A stretch of DNA of 64,000 nt from contig NZ_NFHP01000002.1 in assembly GCF_002159335.1 (NCBI RefSeq), positions 310,001 to 374,000 of the forward strand, read 5' to 3'. Below, piece by piece: positions 18,851 through 29,240 of this stretch. The notes beneath the pieces are model-generated. The model did not search any database and was not told the origin of the DNA. It worked only from the letters and a program-made list of their open reading frames with translations. Position 1 is the first letter of the stretch. Each line of letters opens with the position of its first letter. Source of the stretch: Collinsella sp. An7. GTDB taxonomy: Bacteria; Actinomycetota; Coriobacteriia; Coriobacteriales; Coriobacteriaceae. The position numbers and the translations under genes are program-made.

Positions 18851-20098
18851 CTAAAACCCCAGCAGCTGCAGCACAAACATCACCACGGTGAGCACCGTGA
18901 TGAGCACGATCGTCGCCCAGGTGAGGACGTTCCACACCCGTCCGTTGCGGTACTGCCCCATGATGAGCCGGTCGCTTGCGATAAACACTAGAAAGACCAG
19001 CAGCACGGGTAGCAGCACGCCGTTGATGACCTGCGCCGACATCATGATCTCAAAGAGGTCCACCCCGGGCAAAATCACCAGCAAGGCCGATACCATGATC
19101 ACCGCCGTGATGATACCGCGGTAGACGGGCGCCTCGTCCCAGCTGCGGTCGGCCCCGCGCTCCCAGCCAAAGGCCTCGCAGATGGCGCTCGAGGTCACAC
19201 CCGGCAGCACACACGCCGCCAAAAAGCTCGCCGCCACGAGCCCCGCGGCAAAGAGGACGGTCGACCACGGCCCCACGATGGGCTCGAGGGCGAGCGCCGC
19301 GTCGGCTGCGTCGGAGACCTCGATTCCCGCGGGGTAGAGCACCGAGCCCGTCGTCACGATGATGAACCACGCGATGGCGCAGGCGATGATGGAGCCCGAG
19401 ACGGTATCGACCCGCTGGAGCGGGATTCCCGACTCGTCAACGTTCTTATCGACCACGTTGTTCTGCGCGAGAAAGATCATCCACGGCGCGATGGTGGTGC
19501 CGATGGTCGCCACCAGCAGCGATACGTACCCCGGGCTCGCCACCATGCGCGGCGTGACCGTAGCGGCCGCCACCGCGCCCCAGTCGGGTCCCACCAGAAA
19601 CGCGGCGACCACGTAGGTCAAGAACACGCAGCTCACAAGCAGGAGGATCTTCTCGATCCGCCGAAAGCTCCCCGACATGCTCACGAGCCAGATCACAAGC
19701 GCCACGAGCGGAACCGAGATGGTCTTGGGCACGCCAAAAAGCGCAAGGCCGCTCGCCAGGCCGGCAAACTCCGAGATGGTCACGGCCGTGTTGGCAATCA
19801 GCAGCGCCGCCATGGCGAGCGCGCTCTTGCGCACGCCGAACTTCTCGCGGATGAGCGAGGCAAAGCCCTTGCCCGTCACACAGCCGCAGCGCGCCGCCGT
19901 TTCCTGCACCACGATGAGCAGAAGCGCCATGATGGGCAGAATCCAGAGCGTCCCGTAGCCGTAGGTGGCACCCGCGCTCGAGTAGGTGGCGATACCGCCG
20001 GCGTCGTTGCCGGCGAGCGCCGCAAGAAGTCCGGGGCCCATCGCGCCCAGCACCGCCGCGAGCGTTAAGCGCTCGCCCGTCCCGCGCGCCATCCTCAC
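18851..20098 (-). CDS. Nramp-related divalent metal (probably Mg2+) transporter
   Basis: A 415-residue membrane protein with about 11 helices, Nramp fold. In helix 1 the classical DPGN metal motif reads NDAGGIATYS, and in helix 6 the usual AxMPH reads TIAPWM, so the Met that favours Mn/Fe over Mg/Ca is Ala. This pattern is what is known for Nramp-related magnesium transporters (NRMT), one of which was characterised from the coriobacterium Eggerthella lenta. It imports the ion across the inner membrane. The start GTG at 20098 overlaps the upstream gene by 4 nt (GTGA); an ATG 6 nt later is possible. Its coupled partner has MgtE-N and CBS domains, which supports magnesium. Mn2+ remains an alternative. 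Confidence 0.82.
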   Translation of the reverse strand: MRMARGTGERLTLAAVLGAMGPGLLAALAGNDAGGIATYSSAGATYGYGTLWILPIMALLLIVVQETAARCGCVTGKGFASLIREKFGVRKSALAMAALLIANTAVTISEFAGLASGLALFGVPKTISVPLVALVIWLVSMSGSFRRIEKILLLVSCVFLTYVVAAFLVGPDWGAVAAATVTPRMVASPGYVSLLVATIGTTIAPWMIFLAQNNVVDKNVDESGIPLQRVDTVSGSIIACAIAWFIIVTTGSVLYPAGIEVSDAADAALALEPIVGPWSTVLFAAGLVAASFLAACVLPGVTSSAICEAFGWERGADRSWDEAPVYRGIITAVIMVSALLVILPGVDLFEIMMSAQVINGVLLPVLLVFLVFIASDRLIMGQYRNGRVWNVLTWATIVLITVLTVVMFVLQLLGF

Positions 20099-21987
20099 GC
20101 CACCACAAGAAAGACGCCGAGCGTCGCGGCAACCGCGTACAGCACGCAGGCGATCAGCACCGCCGAGACGTTGAGCGCGATACCCGAGGTGTTGCGGTCG
20201 TGCTCATCGCGCCAGAAGAGGAGCTTGAGGTAGCCCACGGCACCCAAGAAGCACACGAACACCACCGCGGCCGCGGCGCCAAAGCACGCCGTGAGCACCT
20301 GCGCGGTGGTCTGCGCCGTCACATCCCACGCGCCGCCCACAAACACCGGCTCGAGCGACCCCTCAGGGAATGCCGCGCCCAGCACGAGCTGCCCGCAGAG
20401 GTAGACCACGAGCGCAAGCACCGCGCCCACGCCGGCGCAGCGCAAGAAGAACGCCAGATACGGCTTGCCTTCGTCCTCGCGCTCGTCGTACTCCAGGTAG
20501 AAGCCCCGCACAAACGAGGTCATACGGCTTGCAGTGATGAGCACCACCGGCATCACGCCCATGGGATAGATAAACCACGAGCTGCCGTCCACGCCCATCC
20601 AGGTGAGCACCGCCGCGATAACGCCCGAGGCGATGGCCCAGACGAGCACCCAGTACGAACGCTGCGCGAACCACGAGAGCGCGTGCATCGACTCGCCCGC
20701 CGCGCCGCTCTCGCCCGAGCCCATGCCCGCGATCTGCAGGTCCTCCTCGTGCTCCTCCGCAAGAACGTCGAGCGCGTCGTCCACCGTAACGATACCGAGC
20801 ACATGGCGCGCTTCGTCGCACACGGGGATGGCCACGAGGTTGTACTTGGTCATCTCGTCGGCCACCTCCTCTTGGTCGAGGTCGGGGGCGACCCATACCA
20901 CGTCGCGGTACGACAGCTCCGAGAGGCGCGCGTCGCGGTCGGCCACGATGAGCGTGCGGAGGCTGAGCACGCCCGTGAGCGCGCCCACCGGATCGAGCGT
21001 GTAGACGTAGTAGACGCTCTCAAAGTCCTCGTCGAGCCTGCGAATGGCGTCGATCGCATCGCCGACGGTCGCCGTAGCCGGAAGCGCCACAAACTCCTGG
21101 GTCATGATGCGGCCGGCGGTGTCCTCCGCGTAGCCGAGAAGCGTGCGGATGGCGCGCTCCTCCTTGACGCCCATGAGCCGCAGGAGCTTCTCGGCCTTCT
21201 CGTAGTCGAGCTCCTCGATGAGCGCGGCCGCGTCATCGGGGTCCATGAGGGCGAGCATGCTCGAGGCGTCGCGGTCGCTCATGCCCTCGAGCATCTCGGC
21301 CACGAGCTCGTCATCGTCAAGCTCGCTGATGGCCTCGGCCGCCTGCGCAGTGTCGAGCTGGGCAAAGACCTGGCCGCGGAGGCGCGGGTCGAGCTGCTCG
21401 ATGATGTCGGCGATGTCTGCCGGGTGCAGCTCGTCGAGCGTCTTGTGCGAGACCGAGAGCTTGATGGTCTGGGTCGAGCGCTCAAGAAGGTCCATGTACG
21501 ACCAGGCGATGATCTCTTCTTTGAGCGGACGGCCCGTGAGCTTGGCGAGCCGCATGACCGTACGCTCGAACGCGGGGTGGATGGCACGCAAGAGGCCGCG
21601 GGCGCCCACCTCGGCGCCGAGCAGGCGGAGCTGCCCCGCGCCCGTGGCCGAGAGCTTGATGTCGTTTACGCGCACGACCTTCATGCCCTGCGTGTCCACG
21701 ATCTGCTTGTTGAGGATGTCGCGCGCGAGCAGCACCTCGTCGGGCTGGAGGTACGAGAAGCGCACATCGGTGCTCACGGCCTTGAGGTAGACGCCCGTGT
21801 CGTCGAGATGATCGACGTACTTGCGCCAGCTGATCATAAAGGGCGTCTTGCCCGGCCCTTGAAAGGCGAGCGACGTAACGTGGGGAAAGACCTCGCCGGT
21901 GGCGATGCCGAGGTCGTTCACAACGCCGAGCTTCTCCCCCGCGGCGTCGATGACGGGGAGCCTGAGCATCTCAGACAGGTAATTCAT
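20095..21987 (-). CDS. PRC-barrel / MgtE-N / CBS-pair membrane protein
   Basis: A 630-residue protein. ATG at 21987 follows AGGAG by 11 nt. Residues 1-~165 hold PRC-barrel-like units (LPVIDAAGEKLGVVND, DTQGMKVVRVNDIKL). An MgtE-N type superhelix follows (LHPADIADIIEQLDPRLRGQVFAQL ... LDYEKAEKLLRLMGV), then a CBS pair (IMTQEFVALPATATVGDAI ... YNLVAIPVCDEARHVLGIV), and five membrane helices at the C-terminus. The membrane part does not show the GGNxGxQ motif of true MgtE channels, so the cytosolic sensing part is conserved but the pore is not obviously so. It is coupled to the Nramp-related transporter by a 4-nt overlap and may gate or regulate it in response to Mg2+. Confidence 0.78.
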   Translation of the reverse strand: MNYLSEMLRLPVIDAAGEKLGVVNDLGIATGEVFPHVTSLAFQGPGKTPFMISWRKYVDHLDDTGVYLKAVSTDVRFSYLQPDEVLLARDILNKQIVDTQGMKVVRVNDIKLSATGAGQLRLLGAEVGARGLLRAIHPAFERTVMRLAKLTGRPLKEEIIAWSYMDLLERSTQTIKLSVSHKTLDELHPADIADIIEQLDPRLRGQVFAQLDTAQAAEAISELDDDELVAEMLEGMSDRDASSMLALMDPDDAAALIEELDYEKAEKLLRLMGVKEERAIRTLLGYAEDTAGRIMTQEFVALPATATVGDAIDAIRRLDEDFESVYYVYTLDPVGALTGVLSLRTLIVADRDARLSELSYRDVVWVAPDLDQEEVADEMTKYNLVAIPVCDEARHVLGIVTVDDALDVLAEEHEEDLQIAGMGSGESGAAGESMHALSWFAQRSYWVLVWAIASGVIAAVLTWMGVDGSSWFIYPMGVMPVVLITASRMTSFVRGFYLEYDEREDEGKPYLAFFLRCAGVGAVLALVVYLCGQLVLGAAFPEGSLEPVFVGGAWDVTAQTTAQVLTACFGAAAAVVFVCFLGAVGYLKLLFWRDEHDRNTSGIALNVSAVLIACVLYAVAATLGVFLVVA

Positions 21988-22135
21988 GGGTATGGCGCTC
22001 CTTTGCGGCAGAAGGTGCAAGACACCCCGCACGCGCCGGCAGCGCCCGCAGGGCCCTATCGACTATGAGGTCGAGGTTTGGATTTCACCGCTCACCTTTC
22101 TCGAGACCCTGCGTATAACTTGCTAAGTGTACCAC
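21988..22135 (-). promoter_or_regulatory. Leader region of the metal-transport operon
   Basis: About 150 nt upstream of the PRC/MgtE-N gene. On the minus strand it can fold into a small hairpin TCGAC-CTCATA-GTCGA and has AGGTGAGCGGTGAAATCC, but it does not match the M-box or yybP-ykoY consensus that I know. Possible TTATAC -10 near 22110. A metal-responsive leader is possible but not shown. Confidence 0.25.
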
Positions 22136-22226
22136 GAGCGCGGTTTGGTGCCGGGCGAGCTGCCGGCCTGTCAGGGAGGCGCATCCGTACCGTTTTGCCC
22201 AAAACAGCGCCAAAGAGGGGTTAGTA

Positions 22227-22375
22227 TCAAAACTTCGCGCCAATGTAAGGATGAAAACGGCTTCCGTCGAGTAGAGCGAAAATCGGCACCGCATCTACCA
22301 GCGCTTTCTCTGGGCGCCCGGCCTAGTCTACTCGGCAAACCCCGATTCCATCCTTACATTGACGCGAAGTTTTGA
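22227..22375. repeat. 149-bp element with 26-nt inverted ends (type C, copy 2)
   Basis: Left arm 22227-22252 (TCAAAACTTCGCGCCAATGT...) and right arm 22350-22375 match in inverted orientation at 25 of 26 positions; similarity continues outward to an AGGGG on each side (22214 and 22389). Inside, CGAGTAGAGCG (near 22270) and GTCTACTCGG (near 22326) form a second inverted pair, also seen in the 34862 and 61026 copies. Confidence 0.85.
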
Positions 22376-22456
22376 AAATGACCCCCTAATCGGGCAACGA
22401 TGGGCCCCAGGCGCCCGACAAAACAGGCCCCAGGCGCCCCGATAGGGCCCGCGGTG

Positions 22457-24019
22457 TCACCCTTCGGGCATGGCGGCGTCCTCGGGCATCTTGACCGTTC
22501 CCTCGATGACCTCCTCGGGCACGCGCCCGTCGAGCTTCATGAGCTCGCTCACGGTAACGAGGGTGTAGCCGCGCTCCTTCAGGCCGTCGATGATGCCGGG
22601 CAACGCCTCGACATCCTGCTCGCGGTTGCCGCCACCGTCGTGCATGAGGATGATCGAGCCGTTCTCAACATTGTCCAGCACCGCGTTCGTGATGGCCTCG
22701 GCCCCGGGGCGCTTCCAGTCGAGCGTGTCGATGTTCCAGAGCACGTTGGCCGAGATAAGGTCGCCCGCGCGGCCCCACTCCGTCTCGGTAAAGGCGCCGT
22801 AGGGCGCACGGATCATCTGCGGGCGCGTGCCGCTCGCCTGCTCGAGCGTATCCGCCGCGGACGAAATCTCGGCACGCAGGCTCTCGCGGTCGAGCGTCGG
22901 CAGGTTCTGGTGCGCGTTGGTGTGGCTCGCGAGCTCGCAGCCCGCGTCCACGATGGCGCGGCAGCCGTCCGGATCCTTTGCGGCCTGGTTGCCCAGGTTA
23001 AAGAAGGTGGCCGGCACCTTCTTCTCTTTAAGAATCTCGAGGATCTGCGGGGTGTAGCTGCTCGGGCCGTCGTCAAAGGTGAGCGCCGCATACGGACCAC
23101 CCGCCGGCTCGAGATTGATGGAGCTCACCACCATGTCGGTCGCAGGCTCAATCACCGCCACGTCAACGCGCTCGCCCGAACGCTCGCCCACGCGGACCGT
23201 CTTTTTGCCGGCCTTTCCCCATTGCGAGACAAATTGCACCGCGCCTCCGCGCTCCCGCTGCACAGCCGGGGCGAGCTCCGCCTCCTCCTCGTGGCTCGGC
23301 TCGTCGGTGTCCACGCCGTTGGTCACGGTAAAGACGTCGCCGTCGTGCAGGAGGGTCTTGGCAAAGTCGCGCTCATCGATGGTGTCGCCGGTGGGAGCCT
23401 GCGAGGTATCTGCGGCAGCGTCCGAAGCGGCGGTGTCCTCGGCGGGCGCAGCCGAGTCGTCAGTCGAACCGTCCGGAGCGGCCTGATCTGCCACGGCGTC
23501 CCCCGCAGCGTCCCCGGCGTCCCCCGCCGCATCGCCCGTGGCCTCGGCATCGCCCCGGGTAACCGTACACGTTACGCCGCCCTCCTCATCGAGGACGTTC
23601 CCGCCCACCGAGAGCAAACGACCCGGCTTGGCACCAAAGTAGTCGTGCTCAGAGAGCAGGTTGGGGAGCGGGGTGTTAACGCGTGCCGTCACCGGCTCGC
23701 CGTTGACCGTGACGGTGATGTCGCGCAGCATAAAGTACCAGCCGCCCACCACGGTACCACACAGCAGCACCGCAAAGAGCGCGATCACGGCAAGGGCCGC
23801 CGCGCCGCCCCGGCCCCGCGGACGACGCGGCCCACGCCAGCCGCCATGGCCGACGTGCGCACCGTCCGAGCGATGCGTGAGACGCGGCCCGCCGGTATGC
23901 AGCTTGGGAAACTCAGATGAGCGGCCATGCGGCTTGGGCGCATGCCGGTAGTGCGCACGGCCACCGGTATAGTGCAGATTCGTTGCCTTGCCGACCTCGA
24001 CGCGATCGCGCTGCGCCAT
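22457..24019 (-). CDS. Membrane-anchored polysaccharide deacetylase (NodB, active-site complete)
   Basis: A 520-residue type II membrane protein. Start ATG at 24019 (a second ATG directly before it is also possible) follows AAGGCGG. Residues 1-70 are basic and cytoplasmic, 73-95 a membrane helix, then an outer region with ITVTVNGEPVTARV and an acidic Ala/Asp-rich spacer. The NodB domain carries all five motifs: TFDDGPSSY, SHTNAH, RAPYGAF, WNIDTLDW and ILMHD, so the metal Asp/His/His and catalytic residues are intact. It probably removes N-acetyl (or O-acetyl) groups from peptidoglycan or an exopolysaccharide at the cell surface. The next gene upstream is a paralogue with a broken active site. 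Confidence 0.9.
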   Translation of the reverse strand: MAQRDRVEVGKATNLHYTGGRAHYRHAPKPHGRSSEFPKLHTGGPRLTHRSDGAHVGHGGWRGPRRPRGRGGAAALAVIALFAVLLCGTVVGGWYFMLRDITVTVNGEPVTARVNTPLPNLLSEHDYFGAKPGRLLSVGGNVLDEEGGVTCTVTRGDAEATGDAAGDAGDAAGDAVADQAAPDGSTDDSAAPAEDTAASDAAADTSQAPTGDTIDERDFAKTLLHDGDVFTVTNGVDTDEPSHEEEAELAPAVQRERGGAVQFVSQWGKAGKKTVRVGERSGERVDVAVIEPATDMVVSSINLEPAGGPYAALTFDDGPSSYTPQILEILKEKKVPATFFNLGNQAAKDPDGCRAIVDAGCELASHTNAHQNLPTLDRESLRAEISSAADTLEQASGTRPQMIRAPYGAFTETEWGRAGDLISANVLWNIDTLDWKRPGAEAITNAVLDNVENGSIILMHDGGGNREQDVEALPGIIDGLKERGYTLVTVSELMKLDGRVPEEVIEGTVKMPEDAAMPEG

Positions 24020-24178
24020 CATGTCCGCCTTTCCGCCGCAGCCCTCTTTCTTGGCAGCGGTCTCTCCTTTGACGAGAAGCGTACCCGCAACGCGGGACCG
24101 ATACAAGTTACCGAAATGCTAGGTTGAAGCCAGAACAAGTGCTTGAAGCAGGGGGCTAGGGGGTCCGGTTCTCTCCAC

Positions 24179-24211
24179 GTGAGAAAGACGCACCCGTCCC
24201 CATATTCTCAC
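24179..24211. repeat. REP-like palindrome with CCCGTCCCC core (type A, copy 2)
   Basis: Arms GTGAGAA (24179-24185) and TTCTCAC (24205-24211) around a core ACCCGTCCCCA. The right arm overlaps the stop codon of the deacetylase-like gene at 24208. Confidence 0.65.
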
Positions 24212-25587
24212 TCCTCGGTGGAGAGCGTGGGCAGCACGGCGTCCTTGGGCATCGTCACCTTAGAGAGGTTGATGGCGTCCTTGAGGTCGCTGTCACTCGC
24301 CACCAGTTCCGAGAGGCTCACGATGCTAAAGCCGTTGGCCTGGAGCTGGTCGATGATCATCGGCAGCGCCTCAACCGCCTGCGCACCCGTCGCGTCGGTA
24401 TCAGAAAGGAGCACGATGTTGCCCGTGCGCGCCGCGCTCACCACGGTCGAGGCCACCTCGTCCGCCCCTGGCACGAGCCAATCGCCCGAGTCGAGATTCC
24501 ACGACACCACGGCGCTCACCAAATCCATTGCGTCGGCCCAGTTCTGCTCCGAGAACGCGGCGTACGGCGGGCGCAGCAGGCACACGTCCTCACCCGTGGC
24601 GTCTTTGATGGCGCTAAAGCCCTTCGTAAGCTGGGAGCGCAGGTCGTCGGCCGAAAGGTCGGTGAGGTCCGTATCGCTGTAGGAGTTGGACCCGATCTCG
24701 CACCCAGCCTCGGCGATGGCACGGGCCGCCGCAGGGTCGGCCTCAACCGCATCGCCCTGGAGAAAGAACGTTGCCGTAACGCCCTTCTCTTTGAGTACCT
24801 GCAGAATCTGCTCGGTATAGGAGCTCGGGCCCTCGTCAAAGGTGAGCGCGATGAGCTTCTTGCCGTCATCCGGGTAGACCGAGGTGAGCTTAACCACCGC
24901 GTTGACCACCTCGCGCACCGTGCCGCGGTCGGCCGTGATGCCCGAGGTCTTGCCCGTCCAAACCTCCGTGCGGCCGGGCACGCCCCAGGTGGCCACGTAG
25001 CCCACGGCACCCGAGCCCTCCACGGTGAGGGTCGGCGCGATCTCGGTCGCCTGAACGTCGTGGTCCTCGTAGGTGTCGGCGCCGTCGGCGATGGTAAGCT
25101 CCTCGCCGCCCGTGAGGTGCGTGGTGCCGTAATCGTCGGGTGCAACCTCGTTCCCGTTGAGCGTCACGGTATAGCGCGAGCCGCCCCCGCGCTCGAGCAC
25201 GGAGTCGTCCACCGCGAGCAGGTCGCCCGCGTCATACTCGTCGGCAAGCCCGTTGTCCTCAATGTACTGCGAAATCGACGCATTGATGCGCACGCTCGCC
25301 GGCTCACCGTTATAGGTAATCTCGACCGAGCGGTTGAGGTACCAGATGATGCTCGCCACAAAAAAGAGAAAGGCGCAGCCCACGGCCAAGATGGCGTAAG
25401 GCTTGCGGCTGTCGGGGCCGCTCGCGCGGAATCCCGTCCGCTTACGGCCAAACCCCTGCGAATGGTTAAGGTAGGTGGCACCCGGGCGCCGCTGGGAGCG
25501 CGCCCGTCCGCGCGGGAGCTGATAGCCCGTGGCCGCCCGACGGCGGGTCGGACGGGATGCCGGATAGGGGGTGCGACGTTTTGGCAA
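24208..25587 (-). CDS. Deacetylase-like pseudoenzyme (degenerate NodB domain)
   Basis: A 459-residue paralogue of the neighbouring deacetylase. Start is a TTG at 25587, with GAGGGGAG just upstream; in-frame codons further up have no ribosome site. Same layout: basic cytoplasmic tail, helix 64-84, outer VEITYNGEPASVRI region, NodB domain at the end. The active-site motifs are altered: TFDEGPSSY (second Asp to Glu), SNSYSD instead of SHTxxH (both metal His lost), RPPYAAF (Gly to Ala), and LLSDT instead of the catalytic HxD/LMHD (His lost). The frame is intact, so this is most likely a non-catalytic, perhaps carbohydrate-binding or regulatory, partner rather than a pseudogene. Confidence 0.85.
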   Translation of the reverse strand: MPKRRTPYPASRPTRRRAATGYQLPRGRARSQRRPGATYLNHSQGFGRKRTGFRASGPDSRKPYAILAVGCAFLFFVASIIWYLNRSVEITYNGEPASVRINASISQYIEDNGLADEYDAGDLLAVDDSVLERGGGSRYTVTLNGNEVAPDDYGTTHLTGGEELTIADGADTYEDHDVQATEIAPTLTVEGSGAVGYVATWGVPGRTEVWTGKTSGITADRGTVREVVNAVVKLTSVYPDDGKKLIALTFDEGPSSYTEQILQVLKEKGVTATFFLQGDAVEADPAAARAIAEAGCEIGSNSYSDTDLTDLSADDLRSQLTKGFSAIKDATGEDVCLLRPPYAAFSEQNWADAMDLVSAVVSWNLDSGDWLVPGADEVASTVVSAARTGNIVLLSDTDATGAQAVEALPMIIDQLQANGFSIVSLSELVASDSDLKDAINLSKVTMPKDAVLPTLSTEE

Positions 25588-25687
25588 TGGTTCTCCCCTC
25601 GCTATAACCGGAGGATGCGCCGGGGGTGCGAGCACCCATAGCGCGCAACACAAACACAAGACGGCCTTGCCTCCGACCAAGACCGCC

Positions 25688-26443
25688 TTACTGCGAAGCT
25701 TTCTTAAACTCGTCCTTAAAGGCCTTGAACATGCCCTTGGTCTTGCCGAGCTGGCGGCCCACGGCGCGGGTTCCCTTCTCCACGGCAGGTGCCGCCTTGT
25801 CGTCAAACGCCTTGGCGCCTGCCTTGACCTTGGCGGCCCCTTCTTTAACCGAGGCCGAGACCTTAACGCTCACCTCGGCCGCCTTAGCCGCCGCACCGCC
25901 CGTAACCTCGAGCTCGGCCGCTGCGTCGTCCACGATCATGCAGCCGTCGCGGTACCCCCGGAGAAGCTCCGCGGGCATCTCAACGTTGCCCAGAAGCGCC
26001 GTGGCGGTGGCGCCGCGCGTGAGCGCATAGGTAGAGACCGCGCCCGTCTTGGGGTCAAACGTTGCATCGGCGCAGTAGCCGAGCGACTCGCCCGAGACGG
26101 TGCGCACGTCCATGCCCGTCCAGATAAGGCAGCGGTCGAGGTCGATTCCCAGACGCTTGGCCGCCGGCTTATCAAACGAACCCTTGACGTCGAGCGCGCA
26201 GAACGCGCCCTCGTACGACTCAAGGGCGTCAAAAGCAACAAAGAAATCGGGGCGCTTGACCATCCCCGCAATCTCGGGCGGGGTCACCATAAAGCCCATC
26301 AAGCGATCGCCGCGTGGCGTAAAAACGGGAAAGTGCACCTTGCCCATCTTGCGCGGGCGCACCGGAGCGCCGGACTTGTCCGTCCGGCGGTCCTTAGGCG
26401 GCACGCGGTAGAGCTTGAGCCCCTGAAAATCGAGAGCGCGCAT
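25688..26443 (-). CDS. PRC-barrel domain protein
   Basis: A 251-residue soluble protein. Residues ~1-170 appear to hold two PRC-barrel-like units (KVHFPVFTPRGDRLMGFMVT and GMDVRTVSGESLGYCADATFD). The C-terminal ~70 residues are Lys/Ala-rich helix with repeated VKxGAxxVKAGAKAFDDKA, likely amphipathic or coiled. Its ATG overlaps the stop of the YtxH-like gene by 1 nt (TAATG), so the two form one unit. PRC barrels occur in RimM and in stress or metal-related membrane proteins; no reaction is implied. A PRC-barrel also begins the MgtE-N protein at 20095. Confidence 0.65.
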   Translation of the reverse strand: MRALDFQGLKLYRVPPKDRRTDKSGAPVRPRKMGKVHFPVFTPRGDRLMGFMVTPPEIAGMVKRPDFFVAFDALESYEGAFCALDVKGSFDKPAAKRLGIDLDRCLIWTGMDVRTVSGESLGYCADATFDPKTGAVSTYALTRGATATALLGNVEMPAELLRGYRDGCMIVDDAAAELEVTGGAAAKAAEVSVKVSASVKEGAAKVKAGAKAFDDKAAPAVEKGTRAVGRQLGKTKGMFKAFKDEFKKASQ

Positions 26444-26841
26444 TACGCCTCGGCGGGAGCCTCGGTGGGAGCCTTGGCAGCAGCCTCGGCGGCGGGAGCG
26501 ACCTCGACCTCAACGTCCATGGCGGGCTTTACGTTGCCGGAGGAGACAGCCTGGTTGAGAGTCTCGCGCAGCTGATCCATGCGCTCGCGGGCGAGGTCGA
26601 CCTTGGCGCGGAGCTCGTCGGTCTTGGCGTCAACCATCGGGCCAAAGTCGTTCACCGCCGAGCGGACCTGCTCGGTGCCCTGCTCGTAAAAGTCGCGCGC
26701 GTTGTCCCAAGCGTCGTTGGCCATATCGCTCGCCATCGCGCGGGTCTCGGCGCCCGAGCGCGGGGCAACGAGGATGCCGATGACCGTACCCGCCGCCGCG
26801 CCGAGCGCCGCGCCGACCACAAAGCTGAACGTCTTGCCCAT
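26443..26841 (-). CDS. YtxH-family small membrane protein
   Basis: A 132-residue protein. ATG at 26841 follows GGAGGG. The N-terminal helix with Gly/Ala pattern FVVGAALGAAAGTVIGILVAP followed by RSGAETRAM is the YtxH signature. A long amphipathic helix (DNARDFYEQGTEQVRSAV ... LRETLNQAVSS) and an Ala/Glu/Pro-rich tail follow. Such proteins are membrane-associated and often stress-induced; the exact role is unknown. It is first in a two-gene unit with the PRC-barrel gene. Confidence 0.8.
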   Translation of the reverse strand: MGKTFSFVVGAALGAAAGTVIGILVAPRSGAETRAMASDMANDAWDNARDFYEQGTEQVRSAVNDFGPMVDAKTDELRAKVDLARERMDQLRETLNQAVSSGNVKPAMDVEVEVAPAAEAAAKAPTEAPAEA

Positions 26842-26881
26842 GTCTATCCCTCCAGTGAGAGTTTGCGTACAGGTGCAGCTC

Positions 26882-26907
26882 ATTATACCCGCATGTGCGA
26901 GCGTCAA
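26882..26907 (-). promoter_or_regulatory. Promoter of the YtxH/PRC unit
   Basis: On the minus strand a perfect TATAAT (26882-26887) lies 40 nt before the start codon. TTGACG (26902-26907) is upstream but only 14 bp away, shorter than the normal 16-18. Confidence 0.5.
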
Positions 26908-26928
26908 CTCAGACGACCCGTGAGCGGT

Positions 26929-27001
26929 GATTTGTTTAGAAACGCAGCCGCCTCGCAGCATGGCCGCCCGGGTACTCCGGCACTGGACCCTGCTGCGAGG
27001 C
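26929..27001 (-). terminator. Long-stem terminator after the CphA-N-like gene
   Basis: An 11-bp perfect stem GCCTCGCAGCA (26950-26960) with TGCTGCGAGGC (26991-27001), a 30-nt loop, and on the minus strand a T-containing tail (GTTTCTAAACAAATC). Confidence 0.6.
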
Positions 27002-27030
27002 GATCCCGCTCGTATCTGCAATCAAGCAGT

Positions 27031-27654
27031 CTATCCCTGGTAGCCAGCGGCAGCCCCGCCAAAGACCGCACCCTCGGCCGGCTCGCCCGCCGCAGCGGGC
27101 GCCTCGGTGTCGATGGGAGCGCCGTCCTCGGCTCCGTCCGCAGACTCATCGGCCCCGTTACCTGCACTATCGTCCTCGCCGCGCAGGCTCAGCACGAGGC
27201 TCCGCAGCGCGGCGACGGTGCCCTCCACATCGGGCGCCGGGGTGTCGGGGTGCACAAAGGCCCACTGCATCATAAAGACGGCCGACGAGAGCGCGCCGAT
27301 GGTGAGCGCGTCGTCCGGGCAGCTCAGCTCGATGTCAAAGAGGTGCGGGTCCTCGGAGACCCCGCGGGTGCGCCCGCTCGAGATGTCGCCCGCAAGGCCC
27401 GTTTCGATCATAAGCTCAACGGTGAGGTGCTCGAGCAGGTGGGCGACCTCGGTATCGCCCATGCAGTCCTGGAACTTCTCGCCCGCGTCGCCGTAGCATG
27501 CGTGCTGGGCGATGGCCGGGACCAGGTAGTACACGCGCGCGGTGGCCTCGATGTCCTCGGAGGTGCGCACCGGCATGCCGGGGTTCACGAGCACGCGCGC
27601 CCGGAGTTTGTCGGCGCTCACGTGGATCTTCATGATGTTAAACAGGTCTGCCAT
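27031..27654 (-). CDS. Orphan protein resembling the N-terminal domain of cyanophycin synthetase
   Basis: A 207-residue soluble protein. ATG at 27654 follows a GGA/GGAG-containing leader. The block DTEVAHLLEHLTVELMIETG followed by SSGRTRGV resembles the CphA N-terminal domain (HxxEHxxxELQ...FGRTR). No ATP-grasp or Mur-ligase domain follows: the rest is a short beta/alpha region and a Gly/Ala/Asp-rich tail. In CphA this domain binds the growing cyanophycin chain; here a stand-alone version would be unusual. The match is by short motif only, so the family call is moderate. Neighbours (YtxH/PRC and CNNM genes) give no hint of function. Confidence 0.5.
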   Translation of the reverse strand: MADLFNIMKIHVSADKLRARVLVNPGMPVRTSEDIEATARVYYLVPAIAQHACYGDAGEKFQDCMGDTEVAHLLEHLTVELMIETGLAGDISSGRTRGVSEDPHLFDIELSCPDDALTIGALSSAVFMMQWAFVHPDTPAPDVEGTVAALRSLVLSLRGEDDSAGNGADESADGAEDGAPIDTEAPAAAGEPAEGAVFGGAAAGYQG

Positions 27655-27833
27655 GGCTCTCCGATCCTTCGGCTCCCGTTGCTTGCTGCCGGCCCGCGTG
27701 CAGGGCCGCTCGCGTGCGGGCACGCTCGGCGCGCTACGCGCAGGCGTTGCCGCAAGCACGTGGCAACGGCAACGGCGGCGTCAGCAGCGCTCGTCCGCGC
27801 GGCCCTCCCCCGTATTCTACCGGTTATGGGCAA

Positions 27834-29240
27834 CTAGGCGCGCGCCTCCTTGCCCTCTTCATCGTGGACGGCACCCTTGTGCGCGGCAGCGTCCTCCTCG
27901 GTGGCACGTGCGGCGGCATCGGCATCCTCGGCACCAACCGCCGGCGTCACCGGCTCCTCCGGCGCGATCACGCGGATGAGCGAGATACGCTGCCCGCGCA
28001 TCGACTGCACCTTAAACTTGTAGCCCTCCACGGTAAAGACCTCTCCGATGTCGGGCACCGAGTCGCAGAAGTCCATAATCCAGCCGGCGATGGTCTCGTA
28101 GTCGTCGCTCTCCTCGATAGGCCAACCCAGTTCAATGGCATCGTCACAGCTAAAGCGGCCGTCGACCAGCCACTCGCGACGGGAGAGGCGCGTAAGGTAC
28201 TTGTTGTCGGGGTCAAACTCGTCCTCGATTTCGCCCACGATCTCCTCAACGATGTCCTCGACGGTGATAACGCCGGCCGTGCCGCCGTACTCGTCCACCA
28301 CCACGACCATCTGCTCGTGCGCGGTCTGCATCTCGGAGAGAAGCGGTAGGATATCCTTGGTGTCGGGCACAAAGGTGGCGTCACGCAGGCTCCCGCTCAC
28401 CGGCTGCTTGCCCTTGCTCGAGAGCGCGAGCTCGATGAGGTCCTTGATATGCGCGATGCCCACCACGTTGTCGGGGTCCTCATGAAAGACCGGCACGCGC
28501 GAATAGCCGGTCTTGCGCATCACGTCGAGCACCTTCTCCACGCTGTCCACGTCCTCGACCATGGTCACGTCCACGCGCGGGACCATGACCTCGCGCGCCA
28601 CGGCGTCGCCCAGGTCAAAGATCTCGTGGATCATGCGCTTCTCTTCGTCGAGCAGGCCATCCTGCTCCGAGACCATGTACTTGATCTCTTCTTCCGAGAC
28701 GTTCTGGCGGTCGTCGGCGCTCTTGATGCCAAGCAGCGTCGAGATACCGTTGGCGCTCGCCTGCGTGAGCCACACGAGCGGCTTGGCGATCTTGCGGAAG
28801 AACATGATGGGCCCGGCAACAGACTTGGCCATGCCCTCGGCGTCGGAGAGGCCGATGCGCTTGGGCACGAGCTCGCCGATCACGATGGAGAGATACGACA
28901 CGATGAGCGTGATGACGATGGGCGAGGCCACGGGTGCCACGGCCGAGAGCGGGGCCACGCCAAACGAGACAACCCACTGGGTGAGCGGGTCGGAAAGCGT
29001 GTTAGACGAGACCGTTGCCGAGAAGAACCCCACGAGCGTGATAGCCACTTGGATGGTGGCGAGGAAGTCGGTGGAGTCGGCGGCGAGCTCGAGCGCCTGA
29101 GCGGCGCGCTTGTCGCCCTCCTCGGCGTCGTGCTCGAGGCTGGCGCGCTTGGCGGTGGTAAGGGCCATCTCGGACATCGAGAAGTAGCCGTTAAGAAGGG
29201 TCAGGAGCAGCGTTGCGACGATGGATATGGCAATGCCCAT
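27834..29240 (-). CDS. CNNM/CorC (hemolysin-C) family membrane protein
   Basis: A 468-residue protein with the standard order: DUF21 membrane domain (1-~200; four helices, FSMSEMALTTAKRASLEH, VIGELVPKRIGLS), CBS pair (REVMVPRVDVTMVED ... VVVVDEYGGTAGVITVEDIVEEIVGEIEDE) and CorC_HlyC domain to ~420, then a ~45-residue Ala/Glu tail. These proteins are linked to Mg2+/Co2+ efflux or homeostasis. AGGAGG lies 14 nt before ATG 29240. It is a second CBS-bearing metal-homeostasis candidate in the window, besides the gene at 20095. Confidence 0.9.
   Translation of the reverse strand: MGIAISIVATLLLTLLNGYFSMSEMALTTAKRASLEHDAEEGDKRAAQALELAADSTDFLATIQVAITLVGFFSATVSSNTLSDPLTQWVVSFGVAPLSAVAPVASPIVITLIVSYLSIVIGELVPKRIGLSDAEGMAKSVAGPIMFFRKIAKPLVWLTQASANGISTLLGIKSADDRQNVSEEEIKYMVSEQDGLLDEEKRMIHEIFDLGDAVAREVMVPRVDVTMVEDVDSVEKVLDVMRKTGYSRVPVFHEDPDNVVGIAHIKDLIELALSSKGKQPVSGSLRDATFVPDTKDILPLLSEMQTAHEQMVVVVDEYGGTAGVITVEDIVEEIVGEIEDEFDPDNKYLTRLSRREWLVDGRFSCDDAIELGWPIEESDDYETIAGWIMDFCDSVPDIGEVFTVEGYKFKVQSMRGQRISLIRVIAPEEPVTPAVGAEDADAAARATEEDAAAHKGAVHDEEGKEARA

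Follow-up and report, generated by a model that had tools for sequence, protein, structure and literature searches.

Two genes for proteins of carbohydrate esterase family 4 (CE4) lie in tandem in Collinsella sp. An7, one with every catalytic motif of a NodB-type deacetylase and the other with most of its catalytic residues replaced. Pseudoenzymes are usually explained as helpers of active relatives. The question raised by this locus is whether the second protein is such a helper or has a function of its own. The window analyzed here is a stretch of 64,000 nucleotides (contig NZ_NFHP01000002.1, positions 310,001 to 374,000). In it, the gene for the CE4/NodB-fold pseudoenzyme (hereafter the dead copy; 459 amino acids, TTG start) occupies 24208..25587 on the minus strand, and its active-type CE4 paralogue (the active copy) occupies 22457..24022, also on the minus strand, with the full motif set. 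A sequence-only reading of this DNA had described the pair and suggested that the dead protein might be an allosteric partner of its neighbor or a binding protein.

The motifs themselves were confirmed: on the minus strand, the active copy reads TFDDGPS, SHTNAH, RAPYGAF, NIDTLDW and LMHD, and the adjacent paralogue reads TFDEGPS, SNSYSD, RPPYAAF, NLDSGDW and LLSD. The metal ligands of CE4 enzymes are the second Asp of motif 1 and the two His residues of motif 2; the acid is the motif-5 His (PMC4505593). In the dead copy of the window, the metal ligands D, H, H and the acid His have become E, N, D and S; the base Asp, which comes first in motif 1, is still there, as are the Arg of motif 3 and the Asp of motif 4. 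Thus motif 1 (24823..24843, minus strand, as for all five) keeps its base Asp and carries Glu for the metal Asp, motif 2 (24673..24690) has Asn and Asp for the two metal His residues, motif 3 (RPPY, 24562..24573) and the Asp-Trp of motif 4 (24478..24483) keep their polar residues, and motif 5 (24400..24411) has Ser for the acid His, followed by an Asp.

The dead copy was sought in 62 genomes of the Collinsella family with completeness of at least 85%. An orthologue with at least 53% identity is present in 61 of these, and the addition of G006 from a genus search gives 62 dead sequences. None of the 62 retains the canonical metal triad or the acid His. The metal Asp is replaced by Glu in 56, the first His by Asn in 57 and the second His by Asp in 53 (the rest show other changes or a gap), and the acid position holds Thr in 59 and Ser in three. 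The motif-3 Arg, motif-4 Asp and motif-5 Asp (Arg339, Asp369 and Asp396) are invariant in 62/62 each, with zero changes on the dead-copy tree. Among active-type sequences (33 from the family and 18 from the outgroup) the metal triad is present in 51/51 and the acid His in 49/49 of those covering the position; two further outgroup proteins, starting SFDDGP, also have a complete catalytic set. The recurrence of the four-residue loss in every dead orthologue exceeds chance. With the canonical ligand set and the acid missing from each of them, loss of canonical CE4 catalysis is very likely, and the protein belongs, in a loose sense, with the putative CE4 pseudoenzymes: CE4 fold, catalytic residues lost, gene kept.

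These residues also bear on whether the dead copy is an enzyme with altered chemistry, in which E-N-D(-T/S) together with the base Asp would bind another metal or work metal-free. The complete D-E-N-D set with Thr or Ser at the acid position occurs in 53/62 orthologues, 55 have the base Asp and the other seven an Asn there, and metal-free NodB enzymes exist, such as PuuE allantoinase (3CL6; PMC10967932). However, the set has been lost in lineages that keep the gene (NLMN, NGMG, NRNG, NNAA, NSY-, NENF), the site columns are not among the slowest, and the acid His is absent throughout, which makes a new chemistry improbable.

The origin of the pair can be traced by its distribution. Among named organisms, Collinsella sp. 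An268 (73%), Candidatus Coprousia avicola (72%) and Collinsella sp. An307 (70%) have the proteins most similar to the dead copy. The search across the order covered 247 genomes, 185 of them outside the family; the outside matches listed have at most 41% identity to the dead copy, and the best of them (E 1.5e-89) is weaker than the weakest dead orthologue (E 6.3e-135). A pseudoenzyme common to sister families was rejected on the loci covered: the 20 outside loci fetched all carry D-D-H-H and the acid His. The same holds for 30/30 best-scoring loci of the outgroup family f5, a set that overlaps the 20; this check was confined to the best-scoring loci, in genomes where some genera carry 3-6 lower-scoring paralogues. 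In a tree of 87 proteins, with catalytic columns excluded, the dead clade (100/100; bootstrap/Shimodaira-Hasegawa-like approximate likelihood-ratio test) and the family active clade (100/99) are sister to each other against the outgroup, which points to one duplication basal to the family. The gene order CNNM - cyanophycin-synthase-N-like (CyaN) - YtxH - PRC - CE4 - MgtE - Nramp is common, in whole or in part, to f5, where a single active CE4 occupies the slot of the pair, for example in loci L138, L139, L141, L143 and L148. Given the tree and this synteny, the most economical history is a tandem duplication in the family ancestor, after which the upstream copy lost its catalysis.

The active copy has been far less persistent. 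No adjacent active copy is found in 30/62 dead-bearing genomes, and its absence requires at least seven state changes on the dead-copy tree (41 thinned tips); as the duplication is older than the family, these changes are read as losses of the active copy. In 29 of the 30 genomes without an active copy, the DNA downstream of the dead copy holds no recognizable remnant of the active gene; G060 has one 25-residue match to the active copy behind the dead copy, with E 0.003. Among named species, the active copy is missing from the locus in Enorma phocaeensis (L008), C. provencensis (L017) and C. intestinalis (L019), and present in C. tanakaei (L015, L016) and E. massiliensis (L014). The dead copy is the sole PF01522 match in 28/62 genomes, and in G027 and G039 a distant third CE4 is the only PF01522 protein besides it. 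Gaps in assembly do not account for this, since complete and near-complete assemblies are included (for example G014 in one contig; G013, G029 and G036 in three contigs each). The source genome (2.37 Mb) also encodes a distant third PF01522 protein (G000:C14:101158-101523, locus L003; 52.9 bits); some other genomes of the family have counterparts.

Selection on the dead copy was estimated as the ratio of nonsynonymous to synonymous substitution rates (dN/dS; Nei-Gojobori) over the NodB domain in 23 chosen pairs. The dead copy gives pairwise values of 0.031-0.306, and the active copy 0-0.287 in the 14 of the same pairs that have it; these values are indications rather than tests because pairs share branches and some dS values are high (up to 1.28). 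Where neither genome of a pair has the active copy (eight pairs), the dead NodB domain gives 0.039-0.182. The dead copy is thus under purifying selection and not decaying. A decaying pseudogene would account for the lost catalytic residues and for one broken frame (G057), but with the gene in 61/62 genomes, low dN/dS and open frames elsewhere, decay is rejected at the family level and retains hardly any probability. The sequence-only reading had likewise favored a pseudoenzyme over decay, for which it named frameshifts and high dN/dS as the signs; only the single broken frame was found.

Its suggestion of an allosteric partner fares less well. In favor of a partner, inhibitor or substrate-presenting subunit of the neighboring active CE4, the two are tandem neighbors in most of the 32 genomes with both copies; their common ancestry could also permit heterodimers. 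Nevertheless, 30/62 genomes keep the dead copy with no adjacent active one and 28 with no other PF01522 protein at all, constraint persists there, and in G010 the two copies lie apart. Since it is kept and constrained in genomes lacking the enzyme, the dead copy is not an obligate partner and does not need its active paralogue. Such a role is contradicted as a general explanation and is rather unlikely overall, although the dead copy may act as a partner where both copies are present.

An AlphaFold2 model of the dead copy, built with the family alignment (predicted local distance difference test, pLDDT, 86), has a single helix at residues 62-84, a beta-rich ectodomain and then the NodB domain. 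The putative transmembrane helix (25336..25404, minus strand, as for the following features) is unusually conserved. It is preceded by a cytoplasmic tail motif, PGATYLNHSQGFG (residues 35-47; 25447..25485), which is specific to the dead copy. The ectodomain between helix and NodB (residues 86-236; 24880..25332) is modeled with pLDDT of about 85-96; outside NodB, no Pfam match was found at E up to 10. The NodB domain (residues 241-432; 24292..24867) scores 101 bits against PF01522 and the active copy 117 bits (Pfam cut-off 23.1), and at 145.8 bits the dead copy is under the NCBIfam cut-off of 237.4 for the PdaB/YbaN equivalog TIGR02764. Fold searches with Foldseek and VIA-align, which test mainly the NodB part, return the CE4 barrel fold, with Z 24-27 against CE4 structures and a top score of 27.3 to Bc1960.

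Constraint is distributed differently in the two copies. Across 30 genomes with both copies complete (435 pairs, which are not independent), the N-terminal region before NodB is more alike among dead than among active copies in 395 pairs, whereas the NodB domain is less alike among dead copies in 427. Over the membrane helix (residues 61-86), the mean majority fraction is 0.76 in the dead copy versus 0.45 in the active copy, with 5.0 changes per column on the dead tree (41 tips) versus 9.1 on the active tree (25 tips). The tail motif, searched as the loose pattern PGAxYLxHSQGFG, is found in 55/62 dead, 0/20 outgroup and 2/33 active proteins. The two active hits are spurious, as the match falls within the membrane helix, and no second protein with the motif was found in the same genome at a significant E-value. 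An ancestral tail motif, retained by one copy through subfunctionalization, was rejected because none of the 20 outgroup proteins carries it. The ectodomains are equally close to the outgroup (0.339 for dead and 0.339 for active). In the dead copy, constraint has thus shifted to the membrane helix, ectodomain and tail motif, leaving NodB freer. This shift is what would be expected if the NodB domain were a passive folded spacer, with selection acting on tail, helix and ectodomain. Against this, NodB is itself still under purifying selection (dN/dS 0.03-0.31) and three groove residues are retained in 62/62 orthologues, so that a mere spacer is unlikely.

The preferred reading is a binding protein. 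More specifically, the dead copy may be a membrane-anchored, non-catalytic scaffold or sensor that binds the wall, an ancient duplicate independent of its active paralogue; we give this proposal about an even chance. On this account it goes back to a CE4 deacetylase of the peptidoglycan type in the conserved cluster, of which the common ancestor of the Collinsella family acquired a second, tandem copy. Having lost the three canonical metal ligands and the acid His, the upstream copy very probably can no longer use the CE4 metal mechanism. It has retained the fold and three polar groove residues (Arg339, Asp369, Asp396), and has gained or kept constraint on the membrane helix, the ectodomain and a new cytoplasmic tail motif. 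In the resulting bitopic membrane protein, the outer part would hold or sense wall glycan via the old substrate groove, and the helix and tail would hold a membrane or cytosolic partner; the product of the PRC-barrel gene just upstream comes first among the candidates. A scaffold or sensor fits better than an allosteric subunit because helix and tail are conserved, the polar groove is kept and the enzyme is dispensable. A bolder version, for which the odds are clearly against, is a sensor of the wall, built from a former deacetylase, that crosses the membrane once: the groove would read peptidoglycan (for instance its N-acetylation state), the helix and PGAxYLxHSQGFG tail would relay the signal to a partner in the cytosol, for example the PRC-barrel protein, and the receptor would have replaced the enzyme in many gut Collinsella.

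Several observations weigh against a wall-binding scaffold or sensor. The changed catalytic-site columns are only moderately slow (22nd-43rd percentile on the tree) and vary in several dead-copy lineages (L-M-N, N-A-A, R-N-G, G-M-G), so they do not establish a tuned ligand pocket, and the invariant Arg and Asp residues may serve folding only. Conservation of the tail and membrane helix points to a partner without naming one, and the synteny with the PRC gene is not specific to the dead copy, since the outgroup, with its active CE4, shows the same arrangement. Two genomes are also exceptions: G012 has an active-type copy only, and in G057 (L014, Enorma massiliensis) the dead frame is broken near residue 75, giving two overlapping matches, as the result of either a sequencing error or a true frameshift. 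In a relative, L021, the dead-copy match is unbroken over residues 6-194.

As to the gene starts, the dead copy is a single uninterrupted frame from the TTG at 25587, with AGGGGAG upstream, in agreement with the intact frame and TTG start first noticed. Starts with a purine-rich stretch near the equivalent position in the 62 orthologues are TTG in 31, ATG in 24 and GTG in four, with none found in three, which makes the TTG plausible. The open frame of the active copy extends to a TTG at 24106, but the alternative ATG at 24022, preceded by GGAAAGG, appears likelier. In the source genome this frame carries a long Ala/Asp/Gly-rich insertion in the ectodomain (about residues 190-240 of the open frame), modeled with low confidence and probably disordered.

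The candidate partner, a PRC-barrel-like cytosolic protein (25688..26443, minus strand; weak PF05239 match, E 0.037), is encoded immediately upstream of the dead copy. A PRC gene is found directly upstream of the dead copy in 37/38 loci of at least 6 kb. The exception, G054, has unread bases there; an apparent fusion of PRC and pseudoenzyme in this genome (a 669-residue frame), which would have spoken directly for a partner, is an artefact of unread bases (N) that join two frames. Next in the conserved cluster is a YtxH-like protein (26443..27021, minus strand; PF12732), and the next gene downstream of the pair, also syntenic, encodes an MgtE_N/CBS/PRC membrane protein (20095..22032, minus strand). 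Window positions 18851-29240 thus place wall-protein genes within a conserved cluster of metal-ion and PRC/CBS-type genes (CNNM, MgtE_N/CBS/PRC, Nramp), partly common to another family.

Between the active CE4 gene and the MgtE gene lies an imperfect palindrome of about 150 bp (22222-22380). Its arms, CAAAACTTCGCGYCAATGTAAGGATG, are about 121 bases apart from start to start, with an outer GGGGTCA/TGACCCC in other copies. The arms have 15 forward and 15 reverse matches in the source genome (control 0 and 0) and are much rarer in eight congeners, with matches in G002 and G001 only. Arms are conserved among the copies and the center is variable; Rfam gave no match to the palindrome. It is perhaps an element resembling a miniature inverted-repeat transposable element.

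At least seven times within one family of gut bacteria, the enzyme has disappeared and the dead copy has stayed behind, which sets a probable function of its own apart from that of a helper. Natural species with and without the active copy are available for testing its role. Automatic annotation based on fold would name the gene a polysaccharide deacetylase, though it is the sole CE4-type protein in 28/62 species genomes. Resistance to lysozyme is often tied to peptidoglycan deacetylation. Neither should be assumed in the 28 species whose only CE4-type protein is the dead copy.

Literature searches found no paper on a pseudo-deacetylase of Collinsella. As far as they show, three things are new: a family-wide pseudoenzyme with an E-N-D-T/S set, the survival of this gene where the enzyme has repeatedly been lost, and the move of constraint towards the membrane helix and tail. 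CE4 pseudoenzymes as such are already known (PMC10967932; PMC6115787). The dead copy shares its fold, and its order of membrane anchor, extra domain and NodB, with peptidoglycan deacetylases of the PgdA/PdaC type, the general kind to which the active copy belongs, but differs from them in lacking the catalytic residues in 62/62 orthologues.

Among known pseudoenzymes, BA3943 of Bacillus anthracis (PDB 7bkf, 6hm9 and 6hpa, titled CE4 family pseudoenzyme) aligns with the dead copy at Z 24.4-24.9 and about 29-30% identity. In BA3943, catalytic motif 1 is altered and motif 2 kept, the former being the only departure that is named (PMC6115787). The dead copy, in contrast, has the whole canonical metal triad and the acid His replaced. 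To our knowledge, neither a history with a tandem active copy nor conservation of membrane helix and tail is known for BA3943.

BA0150 of the same species (PDB 4m1b; 33% identity, Z 26.1) likewise has the CE4 fold with the metal site lost. It is described as a catalytically inert, metal-free pseudoenzyme (PMC10967932; PMC6115787), is grouped with N-acetylmuramic acid (MurNAc) deacetylases (PMC10967932) and is N-terminally membrane-anchored (PMC6115787), as the dead copy is predicted to be. By alignment, however, BA0150 retains the motif 5 His, where the Collinsella dead family has Thr or Ser. Deacetylase-fold proteins BA0330 and BA0331 of B. anthracis have no detected activity by the account consulted and contribute to cell-wall stability and cell shape (PMC4505593). 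Unlike the dead copy, with its membrane helix and lost site, these are lipoproteins with an Fn3 domain and an Asp-His-His site, yet their precedent shows that a non-catalytic role at the wall is possible for a protein of this fold.

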